DNA of 64,000 nt from Bacteroidetes bacterium GWF2_43_63. GTDB lineage: Bacteria; Bacteroidota; Bacteroidia; Bacteroidales; DTU049. Below are positions 6,220-28,272 of the stretch, piece by piece. The position numbers and the translations under genes are program-made. The stretch is taken from the NCBI GenBank assembly GCA_001769275.1, contig MEOQ01000039.1, positions 1 through 64,000 on the forward strand. The letters are read 5' to 3'. Every line of letters starts with the position of its first letter. Position 1 is the stretch's first letter. The notes beneath the pieces are model-generated. The model saw nothing but the letters and a program-made list of their open reading frames with translations. It did not search any database and had not been told where the DNA came from.

Positions 6220-6283
6220 CATTACATCGTGGAAGCCGAAAAACGATTTTTAACAGAGTAGGCCCTTATTAATCCTTATAACT

Positions 6284-17023: not shown

Positions 17024-17115
17024 AAGGTTGGGCGTAGTCTAATAATGATAATCTGCTGGGATTAGTCTGGAGACTAATCCCAACAAAAACATTAAAAAAG
17101 ACTACGCCCAACCTT
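17024..17115. repeat. Nested double palindrome at the 3' end of the kinase cluster
   Basis: The outer arms 17024-17040 and 17099-17115 are a perfect 17-base inverted repeat (core GGGCGTAGTCT). Inside lies a second perfect one, 17057-17068 and 17071-17082 (TGGGATTAGTCT with a GG loop). It begins three bases beyond the stop of the gene ending at 17119, so it may act as a transcript-end structure. It could also be a small mobile repeat. Confidence 0.75.
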
Positions 17116-17118
17116 TGA

Positions 17119-19407
17119 TTAAATGTCTTTATACACTTCCGCCAGATTGTTTTCGACAACGTGCATAACGGCTACCAGAGCGCCTTCGGCAGAGTAGCAG
17201 AATTTTTTCTGCATGCTTTTGAGCATAAATTTTATATCGCTTTTCAGTCGTGAATCATACGAGTTGAAATTCTCTGTGTGATATTCAGTAAGTGCGCGGC
17301 GGAAATTGCTGTTGGCCATATAGGGCTCCAGGGCATGCTTTTTCAACGTGTCGCCATATTTTTTAAAGAGCTGTGCAAACTGTTCGGTTTCGGTGATATC
17401 CATTTTTTTAATTCTTATATCCTGCGAAAGCGTACGTGCAATATATTCTTTATGAATGGCTCGTCGCCGGCTTGAAATCTCAGTTGCAGTAAGTCCTTCT
17501 CCAAACAAATATTGTTCAATGGTGTACAACCATGCTTCAGTAATGGTGAATTCATCATCCGTATATTTCGAACGAACGGTCTCACCTACTTCGAAGTTGA
17601 GCGCATAGAGATAATTACTGATGGCATCTTTGATCTGTTTCTCATTTACATTGAAAATCGCCTCTTTCACTTCTTCGAGGATAGAAATTTCATATAATCT
17701 GAAAAGCGCATCAATAAACCCTTTCGGAACCATCGAAGCTGTTTTTTCCTGTAGATTCCGGAAGTACTCCGCCACATTTCCCATTGTTATCAGTTCTCCT
17801 TTGTCACGGAATTTTGCAACAAATTCATTGAACAGCGAAAGCGATTGACGGCCTGAAACACCGCTCTGGCCCTCAATTTCGCTCAATTCAAGCAAACGCT
17901 TTCTTATAGGCTTGGTAAAACGTTTTACATCTTCTTCGGTGAGCCATTCTGGTACAAAACCCCTGTAGAGGTCCATTCTGAGCAAGAGCAAATCATCGTC
18001 AGTGTAACGGATGTACAATTGCTTATTGGAAATCCAGCTTTGCAAAACATCGTTGCCAAGATCGAGACGGGTGCTGATAATTATTTTGGCGAAATTTTCA
18101 AAAACGTGCGGTAGAAACATCCTGCCGACATTTTTTCCAAATTTGTTTTTATAAATTTTCAGCTCAGTATCATAATCCAAAACATAAGGTATCGTCACAG
18201 AAATAATACGATCCTGAAAAGACCTGATGTTTTCGAAATGCTTGCGGTCTTCCGCATTCAGCAACCCCATGAACAGACTCGTCACTTTTTCTTCAATATG
18301 TTCAACCTTGTGAACGCCATCGCTGATAACACCATGCAGATTGACAAGGCGTTTTACATTATTGTCTTTGATATCCATGAGCGCATACACTCCATTGTTG
18401 GTGTAGGCCAGGTCAGAATGAACAAAACGAATATCGTCGCTGCGAAAAAAGTTGTTCAGAAATCGCTGCAGGTTTTCATTCACAATGAGCCCGCGCATCC
18501 CTTCATCACCGGGATTCCAGACGCTGATGCCTTTTCCGAACTGACGGTTAAACTCAACGCGGCGCACATAAATCATATTAAAAACCTCGGCCGGATCATC
18601 CAGCTGATCGATCAGCTGATTGTAAATCGAACTGCAGATGGAACAGGGCGTATCTTTCAGAATCCACTCATACTCTTTCGATGTGGTAAACTTCTTATAT
18701 ACCGACTTGTCGAGCAAAAGTTCCTTCAGAAGATCTTTCCTAAGCTCTCGCGGAATCATCAGTATAGGATGATCATTGTTTGGGCATGAGAACATGAGAG
18801 AGTTACTACTCTCTTTGTCTTCGTCGGACAAATCCTCCAAAGCTTCATTTGGAATTTCTACAAATCCTTTGCGCAGCCGCGTCAGATCAATCTTCCAGTA
18901 AACACTAAAAAGGCGGCCTTCAGGAATTCTGGTATATTCTTCAAGTTTAATCAGTAGATTATTCAGAAACGTAGATTTGCCACTGCCCGGAGGGCCTTCG
19001 AAAAAATAAATATGATTGTTTTGTATGCCCTGACGGAAACTTTTAGCAAGATTCATAAATCGGTTTGCAAAAACACGATCAGCGAAAAACGGCTCGTCAA
19101 CCCCATTTTCAAGCAAGTCGGTGGTATTGTATCCTAAAAAACCAACCGAATCATCGCTCACTGGAAAATCGTCTTCGGTTTCAGGAATGTAATAATGCAC
19201 CATGTCGTAGAAAAGCTGAAAAATGTTTCGGAAAACAAGTTCCGGCTTCAGGTTGGCAATGAATAAAAAATCATTATACGACATCGGAATGCGACGATCT
19301 TTTTCGCGCAAGCCCTGAGAGAGTTTCAGGATGGACTCGAGTTTTTTGCCATGTTCAACAATGTCGATGGCGCCCAGTTTCTGCGATGTTTTAGATTTCT
19401 TTACCAT
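17119..19407 (-). CDS. prkA: PrkA-family serine protein kinase / AAA+ protein
   Basis: A member of the PrkA/YeaG family: AAA+ ATPase fold followed by a kinase-like C-terminal domain, linked to starvation and stress responses in other bacteria; the substrate is unknown. Walker A is GPPGSGKST at 138-146. The family's cysteine/His cluster is present as CPNNDHP near 208-214, the following MIPRELR, and CSIC at 255-258; these may bind metal. The downstream part carries LNAEDRKHFENI and the kinase-domain region to residue 762. It is the last gene of a four-gene operon, 8 bases after SpoVR. The length is longer than the roughly 640 residues usual for YeaG. The gene symbol is assigned by family, not by orthology. 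Confidence 0.8.
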   Translation of the reverse strand: MVKKSKTSQKLGAIDIVEHGKKLESILKLSQGLREKDRRIPMSYNDFLFIANLKPELVFRNIFQLFYDMVHYYIPETEDDFPVSDDSVGFLGYNTTDLLENGVDEPFFADRVFANRFMNLAKSFRQGIQNNHIYFFEGPPGSGKSTFLNNLLIKLEEYTRIPEGRLFSVYWKIDLTRLRKGFVEIPNEALEDLSDEDKESSNSLMFSCPNNDHPILMIPRELRKDLLKELLLDKSVYKKFTTSKEYEWILKDTPCSICSSIYNQLIDQLDDPAEVFNMIYVRRVEFNRQFGKGISVWNPGDEGMRGLIVNENLQRFLNNFFRSDDIRFVHSDLAYTNNGVYALMDIKDNNVKRLVNLHGVISDGVHKVEHIEEKVTSLFMGLLNAEDRKHFENIRSFQDRIISVTIPYVLDYDTELKIYKNKFGKNVGRMFLPHVFENFAKIIISTRLDLGNDVLQSWISNKQLYIRYTDDDLLLLRMDLYRGFVPEWLTEEDVKRFTKPIRKRLLELSEIEGQSGVSGRQSLSLFNEFVAKFRDKGELITMGNVAEYFRNLQEKTASMVPKGFIDALFRLYEISILEEVKEAIFNVNEKQIKDAISNYLYALNFEVGETVRSKYTDDEFTITEAWLYTIEQYLFGEGLTATEISSRRRAIHKEYIARTLSQDIRIKKMDITETEQFAQLFKKYGDTLKKHALEPYMANSNFRRALTEYHTENFNSYDSRLKSDIKFMLKSMQKKFCYSAEGALVAVMHVVENNLAEVYKDI

Positions 19408-19415
19408 GACCAGCC

Positions 19416-21017
19416 CTACAGATTAGTTTTATTTATTTTCTTGTCAGAACAAGAATAGAGCACTCTCCGGAACTCAAACATTTCATCTTCGTTTTCAGCT
19501 TCGCGGTTTACTACAATGTCGGTTGTTTCAAGCTTCACTTCGCCGCCCCACAAAAAACATAGCCCATTCAATACTTCCGGAATAAACTCCTGCACCAGCT
19601 GTTTCCCTTCGAACTGATGCGTAAGATACAGGCACTCATCTGTAGTCTTGTTTGTGTCGGGCTGCACAACCGGCGGATGATACAAACTGTCAACAAGCAT
19701 TTTCTTGTAATCCGCGGCCTTTCTGCTTTTCACGTAATATTCAATGGTGCCTTCTTCCGGATTGGGGCGTTTCCCGACAACAAATAAATCATGCATATCA
19801 ACAAATTCCTGCGTTACAAAAGTGTTGATCAGCATGAAATCGTTGAAGTTTTCACGTAATGAAAATATGGCTTTCTGCCCGTTTCCGGTTTTCAGATCAA
19901 ATTTATTTTTATCGTCGGTGAGCAGCAGCCGCTGATACTCCAACGTCATCTTGCCTTTTTCGGCCAGGTCTTCTACATATTCAATTAATCGCAGACCGAT
20001 GGCGTATGGATTCAGCCCAACACGGCTCAACGAAGTTACGCCAGCGTTCAAAACCCCATACCCTACTTCGTGCCCGACAATGCGATCGTCGCCTCTGAAC
20101 AGCTTGTCGTGCCAGTAACTGGCCCAGCCTTCGTTCAATATTTTTGTTCTGATTTGCGGCGCAAAATACTGAGCTGTATTACGCACAATCGTCAGAATTG
20201 CTTTCATCCAATTGTTGCCATCACGCTTCAGGAAAGGGCTGTGATCGCGGATGAATTCAAGCAGATCGGTTGGTGGCTCTGTCGGATGCCAGTTTTTGAA
20301 AGCGCTTTCAAATTCAGTATGTCTTGACTTGATATCTGAAAAGAATGCTGTGATTCCCAGCTCGCCCTGCGATTCAGTGAGATCGTTATATCGCTCTTGT
20401 TCTTTAAAAATGGCCAGATCCTGCACCTTCAGAACATCAGGCAAAAAATGATTGAAATAAAACGAAACCATCGGTTGCGGATCCATTTCCGAGGGATAAT
20501 CCATCCGCGACAAGGTTTTGAAGTACCCGGTTATATTATCAATGCTGCGTGTAAACTCAATAATGTAATCTGTCCAGCGGCCATATTTACTTCGGTAAGA
20601 CTCGATCAGGCGTTTGTCGCTGAGCGCCACTCCAACAAAATCATCATTCCATGTATGCTCGAAAAGCCGATTGTGCCTGAAAAAATCAATATGTGCCAAC
20701 ACATGATAAAAAATCATGATGTTCATCCAGTCCGGATTGTTGTCGTTGTAAAACGAAATCGCCGGACGGCTGTTGATCACGGTTTCATAGGGATTGGACG
20801 GATAGAGTTTGTATTTGCCATATTCCTTGAGCACCTCCACATCGTTTACCCAGAAATCGTACAACGTAGGAATCATGACCTTTGGCGATAGTTCGAGCAG
20901 GTCTTTGTTGGTCACAATGTATTCGAGTGTTTCATTGCCGAATTCAAGACCCTGCGCCTGCGCCCTGATCTTGCATTGCTCCATTACGGCCTTGGTATGT
21001 TGATCTAACAGATACAT
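19416..21017 (-). CDS. SpoVR/YcgB family protein
   Basis: A member of the SpoVR family, named for a spore cortex role in Bacillus but widely present in non-sporulating bacteria next to PrkA and YeaH; the biochemical activity is unknown. It is recognised by the N-terminal YPSNPYETVINSRPAISFY region, the FYHVLAHIDFFRHN motif near 106-119, the hallmark LNEGWASYWHDK near 293-304, and HEVGYGVLNAGV. The His, Asp and Asn-rich stretches look catalytic or metal-binding. The 533-residue length is normal. It starts one base after the YeaH-type gene ends and is followed 8 bases later by the kinase gene, so it is translated as part of the operon. Confidence 0.92.
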   Translation of the reverse strand: MYLLDQHTKAVMEQCKIRAQAQGLEFGNETLEYIVTNKDLLELSPKVMIPTLYDFWVNDVEVLKEYGKYKLYPSNPYETVINSRPAISFYNDNNPDWMNIMIFYHVLAHIDFFRHNRLFEHTWNDDFVGVALSDKRLIESYRSKYGRWTDYIIEFTRSIDNITGYFKTLSRMDYPSEMDPQPMVSFYFNHFLPDVLKVQDLAIFKEQERYNDLTESQGELGITAFFSDIKSRHTEFESAFKNWHPTEPPTDLLEFIRDHSPFLKRDGNNWMKAILTIVRNTAQYFAPQIRTKILNEGWASYWHDKLFRGDDRIVGHEVGYGVLNAGVTSLSRVGLNPYAIGLRLIEYVEDLAEKGKMTLEYQRLLLTDDKNKFDLKTGNGQKAIFSLRENFNDFMLINTFVTQEFVDMHDLFVVGKRPNPEEGTIEYYVKSRKAADYKKMLVDSLYHPPVVQPDTNKTTDECLYLTHQFEGKQLVQEFIPEVLNGLCFLWGGEVKLETTDIVVNREAENEDEMFEFRRVLYSCSDKKINKTNL

Positions 21018-21018
21018 C

Positions 21019-22365
21019 TTATTCGCTTACCAGTTTCTTGATTGATTCAATGATGCGGGTTTCATCGGCGGTTTCGGCGTTGAAACCATCGATGCGGAAT
21101 TCCTTCCGTCTTTTTTGAGCTATACCCGATTGAGCAATGTTTTTCTCAACCGTCGTTTCGTTTTCACCAGTCCAGGAATTCTTCGAAACAGTAATTCCGA
21201 TGCGACTTACAACTGGAAGTAGTTTATTCAGTTCTTCATTCAGTTCCTTGCCATCGCTGTCCCAGTCATCGCCGTCGGTGCCGTAGAAAACATAGATATT
21301 GTAATCACGCGCTAAGTTTTCGGTCTGGATAATTTTATTGACCATCGCAAACGCAGGTGCCACGCGGGTTCCACCAGCTACCTGCAGTTGATAGTATTGC
21401 TGAAAATTATCGACTTCCTTTGCTTCGGTGTCGTGAACAATAAAACGGCTGACCACATTGTTGCTAAACTGATACATCAGCCAGCTGTAGATGAATAAAT
21501 GCTGCGTTGCAATGGCTTCAGTAGGTTTACCCTGCATCGATCCGCTGTAGTCGCGCACAAAAAACACAATCGCCTGATTCTCGAAATCCATTTCGGCCGA
21601 CATGATGCGGTAAACGAGATCGTCAGGACTAATGATGAGTTTGCTGGTATCAACCGGCTCGCCAGGCAGAATATTGCCCAGCTGAATATTTGTTTCTACA
21701 ATGCGCTTAATGGTGGCTTTTTTCTCAAGAAGCTGACCAAATCCACGGTTGCGGTCGGTCAGGTCGTAAGTGATTTTCGTCAGACTACGTTTGCTGCCCT
21801 TGGGTTTTATGTTCGGCAACTGAAATTTCTCAGTCAGAATTTTTCCAAGATCATACACATCGCTTCCTTCTTCGTGGCTCTCGCCACCGCCTTGTCCAGC
21901 TCCCTGTCCTTCGCCTTCGCCCTGTTGCGGCTGTGCTTTTTGTTTGCCGATCACTTCGCCTTCTTCACCTTCGCCAGAGCCACCGGTCGAATCTTCATCG
22001 GTAATACTGTCGTCGTGATAAAATTTTGGCTCTGTGGTTGAAGGCACAATCACCACTTTGCTTTTCTTGCCTTTGCCGGGTTTTACAATTTTCCCAAGCC
22101 TGATACGCCTTGTAAAGCCATCTTCTTCGCGCTTTTTATCTTTATCGAGCAAGTCTTCGAGCGAACGCAGCATCAATCGGGCATCGGGCGCCGGAGTGTG
22201 ATATCCGGGAAGCACCATCCAGTCGTGCATGAAATATAGTGAATGACTTCGCGCATCCGGATCGAACATGGTCGGATTTTCACGCAGCAATTCATTGATC
22301 TCCTGCTCGCGGCGGATGTATTCTTCCTGCGTCAGCGACGGAATATGTTTTTCTCTTTTTGTCAT
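21019..22365 (-). CDS. YeaH/YhbH family protein (DUF444, VWA-like)
   Basis: A cytoplasmic protein of the YeaH/YhbH family that nearly always accompanies PrkA/YeaG kinases; its role is inferred to be partner or substrate binding. Residues about 110-168 are a disordered acidic Gly/Glu/Gln linker (GEGEGQGAGQGGG). The C-terminal half is a von Willebrand A-like fold with an intact MIDAS-type motif RDYSGSM (Asp272, Ser274, Ser276), the threonine position in GGTRVAPAF and the acidic YGTDGDDW. It is the second gene of the operon: 181 bases after the first ATPase gene, which leaves room for an internal promoter, and one base before SpoVR. Confidence 0.9.
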   Translation of the reverse strand: MTKREKHIPSLTQEEYIRREQEINELLRENPTMFDPDARSHSLYFMHDWMVLPGYHTPAPDARLMLRSLEDLLDKDKKREEDGFTRRIRLGKIVKPGKGKKSKVVIVPSTTEPKFYHDDSITDEDSTGGSGEGEEGEVIGKQKAQPQQGEGEGQGAGQGGGESHEEGSDVYDLGKILTEKFQLPNIKPKGSKRSLTKITYDLTDRNRGFGQLLEKKATIKRIVETNIQLGNILPGEPVDTSKLIISPDDLVYRIMSAEMDFENQAIVFFVRDYSGSMQGKPTEAIATQHLFIYSWLMYQFSNNVVSRFIVHDTEAKEVDNFQQYYQLQVAGGTRVAPAFAMVNKIIQTENLARDYNIYVFYGTDGDDWDSDGKELNEELNKLLPVVSRIGITVSKNSWTGENETTVEKNIAQSGIAQKRRKEFRIDGFNAETADETRIIESIKKLVSE

Positions 22366-22546
22366 TTAGTTCAGCTCAAAAATCAAATATCAGCTTTCCG
22401 TTTTTGTTCGTTACACGTTACGCGTTACAATCGTTACGGATTCTCAGTAAAATCTCTCTTCACCCATTTTCACATCGGTGAACGAGTAACGTTTTACGTG
22501 AGCCGCACATTTTCACATCTCCATATTTCCACATCGATTCGTATTT
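22366..22546. repeat. GTTAC-rich interspersed repeat, copy 2, in the operon spacer
   Basis: The only long gap within the kinase cluster. It contains GTTCGTTACACGTTACGCG, then TTACAATCGTTACGG (22408-22445), and further TAACGTTTTACGTGAG and short ATTTTCACATC repeats. These match the patch at 16860 and the 6050-6115 stretch. No promoter box is evident. Confidence 0.5.
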
Positions 22547-24634
22547 CTAATTTGTATCATCCTGCGTGCAGAAATATTCAATCGTTTTCTCAGCACATGT
22601 GTGGCAATAGCCCAGCACATTAATCATGGTGTCGATCATGCGATTGTACAGGCGATTGTTTTCATCGTTGTTGCGGTTCGACAGCGCGCCAACAAGGCTT
22701 CCGGCGCCGGCAATATCGCTCTTCAGGCGCACATCGGTAACCGCTTTCACCAGATCGTTGTTGTCCATGAAATTGTAATTCGGATCGGTGTTCATTTTCT
22801 GACCGTAGATTTTTGCAATCGTAGTTCTGAAGCTCTGTTTCTGCTCTTCGCTTTTCAGTCCCAGACGATCTTCGACACTGTTGATGTACGATTCGTCAAT
22901 CTTAATACTGATCAGTTTTTTCGACTGCGGATCCTGATAGGTCCATATTTTATTGGGACCGAGATTTTTCGCATCAATGCCGATGATCATGTTCACATAA
23001 TTCATTACATCTTTTTCAATGGCATTTGCCTCATTCATATACGCATTGAAAATGGCTGTCATCACATTTTCGCGATACAGCTTACGGGCGATTTTCACGT
23101 CATTCATAAACTTAATGCGGTCGTTCTGATCCTGCACATAATCAATAATAACCTTGTCAATGGCCGAGAAAACGTCGTAGGCATACATGCATTCGCCTTC
23201 CTGCGTGTCGCTTTGTTCGAGCAGAATCTGAATGGCGCGTCCGAGATTACGATGTCCGAGACCTTTCTGTCCAAAGCGGCGTGTGATGTCGGGATCGGAG
23301 TTGAGTTCATTGACAACTTCGGCCAAAGTGCGCATGCTTTTCTCACCTGCCACTTCGCCGGCAGCCAGTTTCATCATTTCGACCGGATTCAGCTTTTCGT
23401 TACCAGGCATGCGAGTGAGAATAAATGCCGTCGAGATGGCCTGATTGAGGTTCGGATCGATGTGAAGTTTTTTTCCTACAAAGTTTGTTTTTTCAACACC
23501 GCCCAACGAGTAAGATGTCAGCAACTTTTGCAGGTGCAGATTGGTGTTGTGCGACATATACGTAAGTCTGCAGCGGTCGATGATGGGTGCCTGTTCCTTT
23601 TCTTCCTGAAAGCGGGCAAATTCGGCATTGTTCGAAGTAGCCACAATCAAGGTGTCGAGCGGCCATTTGAATCCTTCGATTTCGATGGAGCGGTTCTGAA
23701 TCACGCCCAGATAAACCTGAACAAGGTCGCGTTTATTTTTAAAAATTTCATCGGCAAAGTGAATACCACCGCCTGCAACACGAGCAAGAGCGCCACGTCG
23801 CAAATCGAAGCGATAAGGGTTGTCGGCATCGGCCAGATGCAGCAACCGGCTGATGCTTTCATCGCCGAGAAGGTCAACTGAACTGGAAGTGATTTTATCC
23901 TTGGCCGCATATTTTCCTGTCAGCGTTCCTCTCGATTCGCTCACCGGAACCGGTACAATTTCAATATGTTTCAAGATTTCGGCCATGTCGCCGCCAAAAT
24001 AATCTTTCAACTGATTGTAAACAAAGTAGGTACAAGCTCCAAGCGGACGATAGGCTCTGAACAGCTTTTCGAGCTGACTATCGGAATATCCAAGTTTTGA
24101 CAGATACTTTTTATTGTCGTCGCGCGACTCAAATAAGTTCATTGCCAGCACCATTGGATCCTCGTAGGTCTGACTTTCAATCCGGTCGATTTTCCCATAT
24201 CGTCCGGTCAGGTCGACATTATTAAATCTAAAGGTATAGCGCAGGTTGGCCGGATTTGAAATAAACTCCCGGTATTTTGTGCTGAGAAAATCGACGAAAA
24301 ATGTTTTACCGTTACCAGGTTCGCCAATGAGTACAAAAGCCATTTCGGCAGAAGAACCACCCTCGGCCGCATCTTTTACGAATGAAACAAAGCTGTTGAT
24401 TTCGTCATACATGCCAACAATATGCTTTTTCCCGTCGCGGAAAAGTTTGAAATCATAGGTTGGTTTGCCGTTTATGGTCACCTTTTCCACTTTGTCCGGA
24501 CCGTCCAGAATCATTCTGGAAACAGATTGAAAAACATTTTCAAATGCTCTTTCGCCGGAGATAACTTTCAGTATATGAGCATCGAGTGAGGCCGGATTCA
24601 CATCCAACTGCTCTGCGCTGGTCTTTTTTGCCAT
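22547..24634 (-). CDS. PrkA-like AAA+ ATPase (second, divergent paralogue)
   Basis: A 695-residue AAA+ protein related to the PrkA kinases. Walker A is GEPGNGKT at 104-111. A Walker B-like segment is GGGIHFADEI at 288-297, sensor-1-like VATSNNAE is at 331-338, and the arginine-finger-type PIIDRCR is at 350-356. Other PrkA-like marks are FESRDDNKK and TGKYAAKDK. It lacks the CP-x-x-x-x-HP / CxxC cluster of the partner kinase at 17119. The two have little similarity outside the ATPase core, so this is an ancient paralogue pair, not a recent duplication. It is the first gene of the cluster. I could not find a clear TAnnTTTG box upstream. Confidence 0.8.
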   Translation of the reverse strand: MAKKTSAEQLDVNPASLDAHILKVISGERAFENVFQSVSRMILDGPDKVEKVTINGKPTYDFKLFRDGKKHIVGMYDEINSFVSFVKDAAEGGSSAEMAFVLIGEPGNGKTFFVDFLSTKYREFISNPANLRYTFRFNNVDLTGRYGKIDRIESQTYEDPMVLAMNLFESRDDNKKYLSKLGYSDSQLEKLFRAYRPLGACTYFVYNQLKDYFGGDMAEILKHIEIVPVPVSESRGTLTGKYAAKDKITSSSVDLLGDESISRLLHLADADNPYRFDLRRGALARVAGGGIHFADEIFKNKRDLVQVYLGVIQNRSIEIEGFKWPLDTLIVATSNNAEFARFQEEKEQAPIIDRCRLTYMSHNTNLHLQKLLTSYSLGGVEKTNFVGKKLHIDPNLNQAISTAFILTRMPGNEKLNPVEMMKLAAGEVAGEKSMRTLAEVVNELNSDPDITRRFGQKGLGHRNLGRAIQILLEQSDTQEGECMYAYDVFSAIDKVIIDYVQDQNDRIKFMNDVKIARKLYRENVMTAIFNAYMNEANAIEKDVMNYVNMIIGIDAKNLGPNKIWTYQDPQSKKLISIKIDESYINSVEDRLGLKSEEQKQSFRTTIAKIYGQKMNTDPNYNFMDNNDLVKAVTDVRLKSDIAGAGSLVGALSNRNNDENNRLYNRMIDTMINVLGYCHTCAEKTIEYFCTQDDTN

Positions 24635-25015: not shown

Positions 25016-27070
25016 GTGAAAAAGTTACTACTCATTTTCATAACTATAGGGCTTTGTATTTCAGGTATTTCGCAATCAAAATTACCTGAGATAGATAGTC
25101 TTGAGCGTCTGTTGGAATCAAAAACAGATACCGCACGTGTAAACATAATGTTGCTGATCGGTAAGCAATATCAGCAGAGAGACATGAAAACGGCGGAAGT
25201 ATTCTTTCTTAAATCGCTGGAATTAAGCGATAGTTTGAACTATTCCGAAGGCAAAGCGCAATCACTTAAGCATTTGGCCGACTTAAAAATCGCAACCAGT
25301 GATTATAAGCTGGGCTACACATATATAAATCAGGCAATGGAAGCTTATAAGAGCCTGGGAAGTATGGAAGGCGTGGCGTCGTGTTACCTTAGTTTATCGT
25401 TTATCAACAACCGCATTGCCAATTATCCGGTTGCACTGGAACAAGCTTCGAATTCGCTGATTCTTTTCCGCAAAGCCAATTCACTGGATGGAATGGCGCA
25501 AGCATACAACAATCTTGGGAACATCTATGATAATATGGGCAATTATGAACAATCGCTCAAGTATTATCATAAAACCCTTGAAATTCACAGCTCAGCCAAC
25601 AATAAGCAAGGTTTGGCGCGCGTATATATTAACCTTTCAATTGTTTATAATAAAACAAACCGACCTGATGAAGCTGAAAGTCTGCTAAACAAAGCTATTG
25701 ATATTGGCAAGGAAGCCAATGACATCCGCCTGCTTGCGGTTGCCTATGGTAATATCGGACTGATGCACGATAACGCAGGTGATTATAAAAAAGCACTTGA
25801 GTTCTACACGATGTCGCTCGAACTGAAAACGCAGCTTCAGGACAGGCACAGCATCATGATCTCTGAAATAAATATTGGCAACACCTATTTAAAAATGAAC
25901 CAATTAGAGAATGCCTTACAACATGTAAACAAGGCAATCGAAATCGGTTTAGCTCTGAATGCCAAGCGCGAACTAATTGATGCATATAACATTCAGGCAC
26001 AATTGTATGAAAAGAAAGGCAATTTTGCCAGCGCTTATGCGGCACTCAACCATAGAATTGCACTCAATGATTCAATTTTTGGAACAGACCAACTGAAGAA
26101 TCTGGCAGATGTTGACCGTAAAAACGAGATCAATCAGCTTGAAAGCGAGAATCAGATCCTGCGCCAGCAAAGCATTATAGACCAGCTTAAACTTGAAAAC
26201 AACCGATTTATACGCTATTATTTATTGATAGGTCTCTCTTTTGCCATTGTACTTATTGGATTGCTCATATATCAGTCGGGAGAACGCCGAAAAAGCAGCC
26301 GACGGCTTGACGAGGTGAACAAACAGCTGCTTAAAACCAACAAGCAATTAAAGCGCAGTGAGTCAGAACTGGCTGAATCGAACCGTTCCAAAGATAAATT
26401 CTTTTCTATCATTTCTCACGACCTCCGCAATCCGCTGGCCAGTATGGTGAGTTTTGTCCGGATTATGAAACGCGATTACGCCACGCTGGAGCAATATGAG
26501 CGCGATGCCTTGATTGAGGAATTTGAAAAAATTGTAAACCGGACCGGAAATTTGCTTGAAAACCTTCTGATGTGGTCAAGATCGCAAACAGGCCGACTTA
26601 TTATCACTCCTGAGAACTTCAGCGCCCGCAACGTTCTGGAGGAAAATGCTGAATTTCACGAAACGCTACTCAGAACTAAAAAAATCAGAATCAGTATTTT
26701 AGCTGATAACGATTCAACCGAAATATTTGCCGACAAGAACATGATCAATACCGTCGTCCGCAATTTATTATCTAATTCAATTAAGTTTACCCCCGCTGGC
26801 GGAAAAATTGAATTGGGATATAAGCAATCCGGCAAAAACTGCGTTTTTCATGTAAAAGACAGTGGTATTGGAATTGCGCCAGATAAAGTTCCAAATCTGT
26901 TTTCACTGGGCGAAGTTTACGTTAGAACCGGCACCGCCAATGAAAAAGGGAGTGGACTTGGACTTGTTCTCTGCAAGGAGTTCGTTGAGAAGAACCATGG
27001 GGAAATTTGGCTTGAAAGCGTTCCCAATGAAGGGACTACCTTCTATTTCTCAGTGCCGGTTGCTTCCTGA
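25016..27070 (+). CDS. TPR-containing sensor histidine kinase
   Basis: A membrane sensor kinase of the Bacteroidota TPR-HK type. The start is GTG, followed by a signal peptide (LLLIFITIGLCISGISQ). About eight tetratricopeptide units span residues 40-380 (typical phrases YNNLGNIYDNMGNYEQSL, YGNIGLMHDNAGDYKKAL) and lie in the periplasm. One transmembrane helix sits near 400-420, followed by a coiled coil. The dimerisation domain has SHDLRNPL with His468. The ATPase domain has VRNLLSNSIKFTP (N box), DSGIGI (G1) and GSGLGL (G2). There is no receiver domain and no adjacent response regulator, so its partner is elsewhere. The 3' end overlaps the convergent membrane protein gene by 28 bases. Confidence 0.93.
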   Translation: MKKLLLIFITIGLCISGISQSKLPEIDSLERLLESKTDTARVNIMLLIGKQYQQRDMKTAEVFFLKSLELSDSLNYSEGKAQSLKHLADLKIATSDYKLGYTYINQAMEAYKSLGSMEGVASCYLSLSFINNRIANYPVALEQASNSLILFRKANSLDGMAQAYNNLGNIYDNMGNYEQSLKYYHKTLEIHSSANNKQGLARVYINLSIVYNKTNRPDEAESLLNKAIDIGKEANDIRLLAVAYGNIGLMHDNAGDYKKALEFYTMSLELKTQLQDRHSIMISEINIGNTYLKMNQLENALQHVNKAIEIGLALNAKRELIDAYNIQAQLYEKKGNFASAYAALNHRIALNDSIFGTDQLKNLADVDRKNEINQLESENQILRQQSIIDQLKLENNRFIRYYLLIGLSFAIVLIGLLIYQSGERRKSSRRLDEVNKQLLKTNKQLKRSESELAESNRSKDKFFSIISHDLRNPLASMVSFVRIMKRDYATLEQYERDALIEEFEKIVNRTGNLLENLLMWSRSQTGRLIITPENFSARNVLEENAEFHETLLRTKKIRISILADNDSTEIFADKNMINTVVRNLLSNSIKFTPAGGKIELGYKQSGKNCVFHVKDSGIGIAPDKVPNLFSLGEVYVRTGTANEKGSGLGLVLCKEFVEKNHGEIWLESVPNEGTTFYFSVPVAS

Positions 27071-28195: not shown

Positions 28196-28270
28196 GGTGA
28201 AATTAGCTCAGTCGGTTAGAGCATCAGATTGTGGTTCTGAGGGTCGTGGGTTCGAATCCCATATTTCACC
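28196..28270 (+). tRNA. tRNA-His (anticodon GTG)
   Basis: Full cloverleaf. The acceptor GTGAAAT pairs with ATTTCAC. The D arm is GCTC/GAGC. The anticodon stem TCAGA/TCTGA surrounds loop TTGTGGT with anticodon GTG. The T arm is GTGGG/CCCAT with loop TTCGAAT. The extra 5' G at 28196 faces C73 at 28270, the G-1:C73 identity pair specific to tRNA-His, so the -1 G is gene-encoded. CCA is not encoded. It has its own promoter box and terminator. Confidence 0.97.
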
Positions 28271-28272
28271 CT

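Follow-up and report, generated by a model that had tools for sequence, protein, structure and literature searches.

A conserved gene module that combines two divergent PrkA-family ATPases with a DUF444/VWA protein and SpoVR

Why should one gene cluster encode two ATPases of the PrkA family? The question is raised by a 64,000-nt stretch of the genome of Bacteroidetes bacterium GWF2_43_63 (contig MEOQ01000039.1). This whole stretch is called the window here, and coordinates are counted from its first letter. Four minus-strand genes in the window encode, in order of reading, PrkA-A (A), a DUF444 protein with a VWA domain, a SpoVR-family protein and PrkA-B (B). An initial annotation, made from the sequence alone, had described this arrangement, and both the open reading frames of the window and the Pfam matches agree with it. 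The three families involved, PrkA/YeaG, YeaH/YhbH and SpoVR/YcgB, comprise widespread genes for stress and sporulation with an unclear biochemical role. The module proved to be real and conserved; it is under-described but varies a known layout, and its two ATPases differ in their Walker B and Cys motifs.

The two ATPases that bracket the module had been annotated as very divergent PrkA paralogues, and a search against PrkA and YeaG profiles had been proposed. In this search, A scored 115.2 bits with PF06798 and 50.7 bits with PF08298, and B scored 103.9 and 38.4 bits, respectively; the curated cut-off is 25 for both domains. Because each protein matches both PrkA domains, neither comes from an unrelated AAA+ family, an origin that the Pfam and profile comparisons rule out. 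The YeaG/PrkA equivalog NF011999 (PRK15455; cut-off 576 bits) includes neither of them, as A reached 27.9 bits and B was not listed. The divergence of the two proteins was borne out as well: BLASTP aligned them with 25% identity over 145 columns (E 0.009), and a profile-profile comparison with hhalign gave a probability of 96.1 over 578 columns. As a single sequence, A matched the PrkA structure 9xip in the PDB (E 1e-10); profile searches of the PDB with SpoVR, the DUF444 protein and A gave no matches. The window's own genome contains a third PF08298 match above the cut-off (C40, an 811-aa frame), which covers 56 of 358 positions.

An AlphaFold2 model of B (mean predicted local distance difference test score, pLDDT, 85.8) points to an AAA+ fold. 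The best PDB match found with VIA-align was ClpA (6w24_A; Z 9.8, root-mean-square deviation 6.7, 242 aligned), and all 50 listed rows were AAA+ proteins, including MCM, RuvB, ChlI and NorQ; Foldseek alone found no match for the B model at E <= 0.001. The resemblance of this fold to AAA+ motors of the ClpA/ClpC/Lon type would suit a PrkA-type ATP-dependent protease or unfoldase, in which the VWA protein selects substrates for unfolding or degradation by the pair, and limited protease activity has been reported for B. subtilis PrkA (cited in PMC13001217; papers with PMC numbers are quoted here from excerpts). However, the same source describes a fully purified protein without cleavage and suggests that a contaminating hydrolase caused the weak activity, and Pfam reveals no protease domain in A or B. 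We consider a protease or unfoldase unlikely.

To tabulate how often both ATPases occur beside DUF444 and SpoVR, as the initial annotation had suggested, genome contigs were scanned with A, and the best 80 of at least 303 confirmed relatives were kept as loci. The order A-DUF444-SpoVR-B was found in 49 of them and, with an interrupted A, in one more, that is, in 50 of 80. The other 30 loci comprised A (13), A-DUF444-SpoVR (8), A-DUF444 (7), A with two DUF444 genes and SpoVR (1), and B with two stretches of A and DUF444 (1); 17 of these run into a contig edge, unlike the other 13. Ten genomes with incomplete loci were searched as a whole, namely nine of the 13 that are not cut by a contig edge (those outside this search are L060, L061, L077 and L112) and that of locus L089. 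Hidden Markov models (HMMs) detected A and B in all ten, SpoVR also in all ten and DUF444 in nine. The genes need not be neighbours: in the complete genome G208 all four lie apart, near 124 kb, 523 kb, 661 kb and 2042 kb, and in some genomes (e.g. G206) A is separated from DUF444-SpoVR-B. The 80 loci belong to Bacteroidota (Kapabacteria and Ignavibacteria among them), to Desulfobacterota-type genomes and to records labelled KSB1, Krumholzibacteriota and UASB270. A random pairing of A and B is ruled out by the conserved order and the co-occurrence. Locus L089 (735-5629, on a Deltaproteobacteria contig) has B directly before an interrupted A, followed by DUF444, the only case of this order among the best 80; DUF444-SpoVR-B lies on another contig of the same genome.

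The four families were clustered in 41 to 50 of 52 related loci of 13 kb each. No fifth gene family recurred in more than 12 of the 52 flanks; the next most frequent family, with an example of 661 aa, was present in 12.

The distribution within phyla was also quantified. PF06798 exceeded its cut-off in 3 of 148 Bacteroidota genomes, the window's own included, and in each of them twice. Among 59 relatives (again with the window genome), it was found in 16, twice in 13 and once in three, and NF003712 exceeded its cut-off in 8 of 395 Bacteroidota, including the window genome. A second phylum was represented by 198 genomes, including the module-bearing genome G215 at its centre. Here, PrkA was present in 24 genomes, of which 12 contained A and B, ten contained one canonical copy, one (G292) had two canonical triads and one (G236) carried a third paired type described below. 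The order A-DUF444-SpoVR-B was seen in ten of the 12 genomes with A and B; in G347, A-DUF444 lies apart from SpoVR-B, and G215 is fragmented. SpoVR occurred in 25 of the 198 genomes, 23 times together with PrkA; the exceptions are G293 and G390, which lack PrkA, and G256, which lacks SpoVR and has its DUF444 gene cut by the contig start. A phylum draw around G662 returned the same matching genomes, with G662 replacing G215, and was not counted as it is not independent. In 14 control genomes, PF06798, PF04285 and PF04293 co-occurred in the same four, those of E. coli, B. subtilis, Thermus composti and Haloferax volcanii. Two weak matches had no module genes by HMM in the stretches fetched around them (L204 for a PrkA match in G077, E 7e-4 and below the cut-off; L202 for an NF003712 match in G439). 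The Bacteroidota genome G436 carries a canonical triad (L203). The occurrence of the pair in Bacteroidota and Desulfobacterota-type genomes, as two deep clades with split features, is what this analysis adds.

Which features are split between the two ATPases? Motif names follow general AAA+ knowledge, roles were assigned by alignment, and residue counts refer to alignments of 37 A and 45 B sequences (A6 and A4). A was annotated as having its own Walker A, Walker B, sensor and Arg-finger set. All of this set is present in A, in which sensor-1 N335, R354 and sensor-2 R462 are invariant in 37 of 37 sequences in addition to the Walker motifs (Table 1), so the full set of an active AAA+ ATPase (Walker A, Walker B DE, sensor-1 Asn, Arg finger, sensor-2 Arg) is complete. 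The set is not peculiar to A, however, as B also keeps Walker A, both sensors and the Arg finger (K144, N384, R400 and R520, all in 45 of 45). B has everything but the Walker B Glu, which is missing from the catalytic place in either alignment register. The residues six positions after a conserved Gly (pattern G-x5-[E/D]) were also counted. They read DE in 89 of 95 A rows and MD in 62 of 67 B rows (rows include repeated genomes and represent 86 and 64 distinct sequences), IE, VE or QE in 15 of 18 proteins of the single-PrkA type (K), and HE and HD in four of four each for K1 and K2, the two ATPases of the third paired type; the remaining rows had no match or were mis-hit by the pattern. Independently of the register, alignments thus give a full DE only in A, and a lone Asp in B and K2 where K and K1 have a lone Glu.

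The Cys motifs are divided in a reciprocal manner. As had been annotated, the Cys cluster is found only in the second ATPase, where its three Cys residues are invariant. It aligns to CPMHEEP...CPVC of 9xip and is possibly a zinc site. A has Ser, Leu and, in most rows, Cys at the columns aligned to C208, C255 and C258, and therefore does not possess the set of B. A C-terminal CxxC, in turn, is present in A and absent from B. In 18 single PrkA proteins, the C-terminal Cys pair occurred in 13 and each Cys of the cluster in 13 to 16. E. coli YeaG has neither motif, and the Cys sites are thus not essential to the PrkA family.

The two genes between the ATPases encode members of the DUF444 and SpoVR families. 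The DUF444 protein exceeds the NF003712 cut-off of 421 bits and belongs to that subtype. A VWA domain is stated for a DUF444-family gene in PMC3188799, and a metal ion-dependent adhesion site (MIDAS) of the DxSxS-T-D form, as defined in PMC13036017, is intact in the window protein and in all 24 DUF444 rows of a mixed-type alignment (three of these rows are repeats of one gene). SpoVR exceeds the PF04293 cut-off of 27 and remains outside the equivalog NF008737 (111.9 bits against a cut-off of 679). Its two conserved motifs, HxxxH and NEGWA, are also found in E. coli YcgB, where the HxxxH spacing is one residue longer. The SpoVR model (mean pLDDT 78.5) had no Foldseek match among known folds at E <= 0.001, and the top VIA-align rows, RavZ (Z 5.5) and DPP III (Z 5.3), are too weak to build on. 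Read as gluzincin-like, HxxxH and NEGWA offer no more than a lead, as the Glu usual in HExxH is missing here and the spacing is different.

In a tree of 59 proteins (58 different; 22 A, 19 B, 16 K), A, B and K were each set apart by a branch with 100% bootstrap support, and their stems were long. Mean identities in 46 four-gene loci were 73.0% for A, 59.6% for SpoVR, 56.2% for DUF444 and 50.2% for B, and A is the slower-evolving partner. The pairwise distances of all gene pairs in these loci were correlated with r 0.89-0.91 (Mantel test, 0 of 2000). The third paired type, K1-DUF444-SpoVR-K2, was found in four of 12 genomes of one class, G236 included (L165, L198, L199 and L200). Its ATPases, of about 740 aa (K1) and 830-860 aa (K2), are very divergent; K1 has the Walker B Glu and the C-terminal CxxC, and K2 has Asp and is devoid of CxxC. 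As the Cys cluster is missing from both, the feature split of A and B recurs only partly. K1 stood beside K and K2 beside A in the trees, on long branches. Tests of a common origin did not reject a clade of B and K2 (p 0.372) and were borderline for A and K1 (p 0.068).

How might two such ATPases work together? To the following proposal we give about an even chance: the module would encode a two-subunit PrkA machine in which A hydrolyses ATP, B binds ATP and gives Arg fingers, the VWA protein is the adaptor, SpoVR is client or effector, and the outcome is stress adaptation. A and B would assemble into one mixed ring or into paired rings. A, with its complete Walker B motif, would be the ATP-burning motor, and B would bind ATP and supply arginine fingers while hydrolysing poorly or not at all. 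If B completes the ATP site of A, one would expect it to keep an Arg finger despite its altered Walker B motif, as it does. The DUF444 protein would dock via its VWA/MIDAS domain and couple the motor to the client, as NorD does for NorQ, and SpoVR would be a dedicated client or effector. The output is likely adaptation to starvation or other stress, as for the single-PrkA modules. In favour of this proposal are the conserved pairing, the two deep clades, the Walker B split, the intact MIDAS and the lack of a strongly recurring fifth gene family. The third type adds to this, as in four of four pairs its first ATPase has the Glu and its second the Asp. A natural split of the ATPase into two specialised subunits shows which features are separable and predicts a mixed ring; if the proposal is true, the module is not a protein kinase but a remodelling machine of the AAA+/VWA kind.

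The motifs kept in B also suit another arrangement, in which A and B assemble into separate homo-oligomeric AAA+ rings and serve different steps or clients, with a shared VWA adaptor and SpoVR. Walker A, sensor 1, Arg finger and sensor 2 are kept in both proteins, the two are very divergent, and A can lie apart from the other three genes, as in G206. In addition, a solved single PrkA is represented in the PDB by three entries with 30 chains, which suggests that one PrkA probably can oligomerise alone. Nevertheless, the one-to-one co-occurrence and the reciprocal split of Cys and Walker B motifs fit the subunits of one machine better, and we regard separate rings as possible but doubtful.

Several further observations weigh against the two-subunit proposal. 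The Walker B register of A relative to the other types is uncertain by one column: MAFFT genafpair places the Asp of B on the Glu of A, and MAFFT localpair and hhalign place it on the Asp of A. Canonical single PrkA proteins also have only one acid, a Glu, in Walker B, and a site with a lone acid may therefore still be active. In three of the 16 PrkA-bearing relatives, a single PrkA was found; completeness is 83% and 71% for two of these genomes, and in the remaining one SpoVR is cut by the contig end. Because A served as the query for the 80 loci, B without A could not appear among them; the PF06798 searches, which could have shown B alone, revealed no such case. The genome G662 carries the A/B set together with a canonical triad, and paired and single versions can thus coexist. 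The correlation of A and B distances in the 46 loci (r 0.91) is expected from shared ancestry alone. Finally, SpoVR as the client is a guess, and its model had no significant fold match.

Both ATPases had been called kinases in the initial annotation. This part found no support: 'kinase' is only an inherited name, and nothing in the A and B sequences adds to the case. The literature on kinase activity of PrkA relatives is conflicting, and a 2026 study was negative, as the excerpt reports negligible in vitro kinase activity, as well as negligible protease activity, for Bacillus PrkA and a kinase-like part without a P-loop (PMC13001217). One could still envisage a true Ser/Thr kinase with a regulator, one PrkA phosphorylating targets and the other controlling it. 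PF06798 is named a kinase C-terminal domain, and E. coli YeaG with K426A in the kinase-like part failed to complement (PMC4664914). According to the same excerpt, the variant K116A, made at 64% of the normal level, did not complement either; in our alignments, K116 coincides with the Walker A Lys. Given the Bacillus results and the silence of the A and B sequences, a kinase with a regulator appears highly improbable. With regard to stress, E. coli yeaG and yeaH deletions behave alike under nitrogen starvation (PMC4664914), and YcgB, YeaH and YeaG have been linked (PMC2375023).

The initial annotation had further presented the module as an under-described system, in contrast to layouts with a single kinase elsewhere. 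Such layouts were seen, for example in ten genomes of the second phylum and in Thermomicrobium and Pontibacillus, where the same three families are linked in the order PrkA, DUF444, SpoVR; in E. coli, yeaG and yeaH are adjacent and ycgB is far away. Single PrkA proteins differ in having a lone Glu in Walker B and often both Cys motifs, and A and B form separate deep clades. The claim of an under-described system stands for the Bacteroidota/Desulfobacterota pair, but not for two-PrkA clusters as such: all of the haloarchaeal genomes in a ten-genome study of 2011 are described as having a pair of neighbouring PrkA genes together with DUF444 and SpoVR (PMC3102087, excerpt). Since that cluster has been in print since 2011, a two-PrkA layout is not new in kind. 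Like the window, the haloarchaeal cluster has two PrkA-related genes, one DUF444 and one SpoVR; by the published description, its PrkA genes are adjacent, whereas those of the window bracket DUF444 and SpoVR. The NF003712 match of the Haloferax volcanii control was below the cut-off, and no haloarchaeal copies on plasmids were among the matches listed (two for A, none for B, 40 of 77 records for SpoVR). In the titles and abstracts listed, which covered no preprints and only part of the subscription papers, we found no prior description of the Bacteroidota/Desulfobacterota paired module or of its Walker B split.

Two other groups of AAA+ machines can be compared with the module. Like NorQ/NorD and other MoxR pairs, it combines an AAA+ ATPase with a separate MIDAS-bearing VWA protein, and the excerpt of PMC13036017 ascribes client remodelling and metal insertion to such pairs. 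Unlike them, PrkA has a C-terminal domain of its own, there are two ATPases, and SpoVR takes the place of a known metalloenzyme.

The Mg-chelatases ChlI/ChlD (BchI/BchD) have two AAA+ subunits, one competent and one impaired, and a VWA domain fused to the impaired subunit; in the window module, VWA is a separate protein. ChlI and BchI are among the fold matches of the B model. One may speculate that two-PrkA modules represent a general, perhaps repeatedly evolved heteromeric AAA+ architecture, with a hydrolysing subunit that bears the C-terminal Cys pair and a nucleotide-clamped Arg-finger arm with Asp for Glu, which together with the MIDAS protein would carry out metal loading or remodelling of SpoVR. 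It would be chelatase-like, with an ancestry separate from Mg-chelatase. We offer this extension tentatively and rate it as rather improbable.

Table 1. Positions of the module genes and their conserved motifs in the window
Feature	Positions	Strand	Remarks
PrkA-A	22547..24634	(-)	695 aa, PrkA-family AAA+ ATPase, first gene of the operon; PF06798 and PF08298; clade with 100% support
Walker A of A, GEPGNGKT, residues 104-111	24302..24325	(-)	columns 104, 110, 111 invariant in 37/37 A
Walker B of A, IHFADE, residues 291-296, full DE	23747..23764	(-)	D295 and E296 in 37/37 A
C-terminal CxxC...C of A, residues 677-689	22568..22606	(-)	C677 35/37, C680 36/37, C689 37/37
DUF444 (YeaH/YhbH-like) VWA protein	21019..22365	(-)	448 aa; PF04285 113.6 bits; NF003712 585.3 bits
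MIDAS DxSxS of VWA protein, residues 272-276	21538..21552	(-)	D272, S274, S276, T333, D364 invariant, 40 sequences
SpoVR-family protein	19416..21017	(-)	533 aa; PF04293 211.8 bits
HxxxH motif of SpoVR, H105 and H109	20691..20705	(-)	both His in 19/19 rows
NEGWA motif of SpoVR, residues 295-299	20121..20135	(-)	19/19 rows including E. coli YcgB
PrkA-B	17119..19407	(-)	762 aa, second PrkA-family AAA+ ATPase, last gene of the operon; PF06798 and PF08298
Walker A of B, GPPGSGKS, residues 138-145	18973..18996	(-)	columns 138, 144, 145 invariant in 45/45 B
Cys cluster of B, C208-P...C255xxC258	18634..18786	(-)	C208, C255, C258 in 45/45 B
Walker B of B, VYALMD, residues 340-345, lone Asp	18373..18390	(-)	M344 and D345 in 45/45 B
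Arg-finger pair D399-R400 of B	18208..18213	(-)	R400 45/45, D399 44/45 B
Terminator-like stem, 16 pairs	17052..17087	(-)	shortly after the stop codon of B; consensus match only

The coordinates give intergenic gaps of 181 bases between A and DUF444, one base between DUF444 and SpoVR, and eight bases between SpoVR and B, and we infer that the four genes form one operon with a single transcript. Terminator-like stems numbered 12 in the stretch, compared to a mean of 10.1 after shuffling. The upstream neighbour is a divergent TPR/histidine-kinase gene (25016-27070), which could perhaps be a regulator of the operon. Downstream lies a MORN-repeat gene that matches GldN weakly (E 0.012, below the cut-off).

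Members of the module families were also seen in phages. The canonical PrkA-DUF444-SpoVR triad is complete, and its MIDAS intact, in a huge, uncultured phage of 595 kb (LR756511.1; L163 3923-9404). In Thermus phage TMA (L164 1-4686), three genes in a row encode SpoVR, a hypothetical protein of 617 aa and a 'serine kinase' of the PrkA type, and A matches six Thermus phage records, which are repeats of three phages. Elsewhere on the plus strand of the window, a DUF805b RNA element is found at 6226-6264, just over its gathering score, and a tRNA-His gene (GTG anticodon) at 28197-28271.

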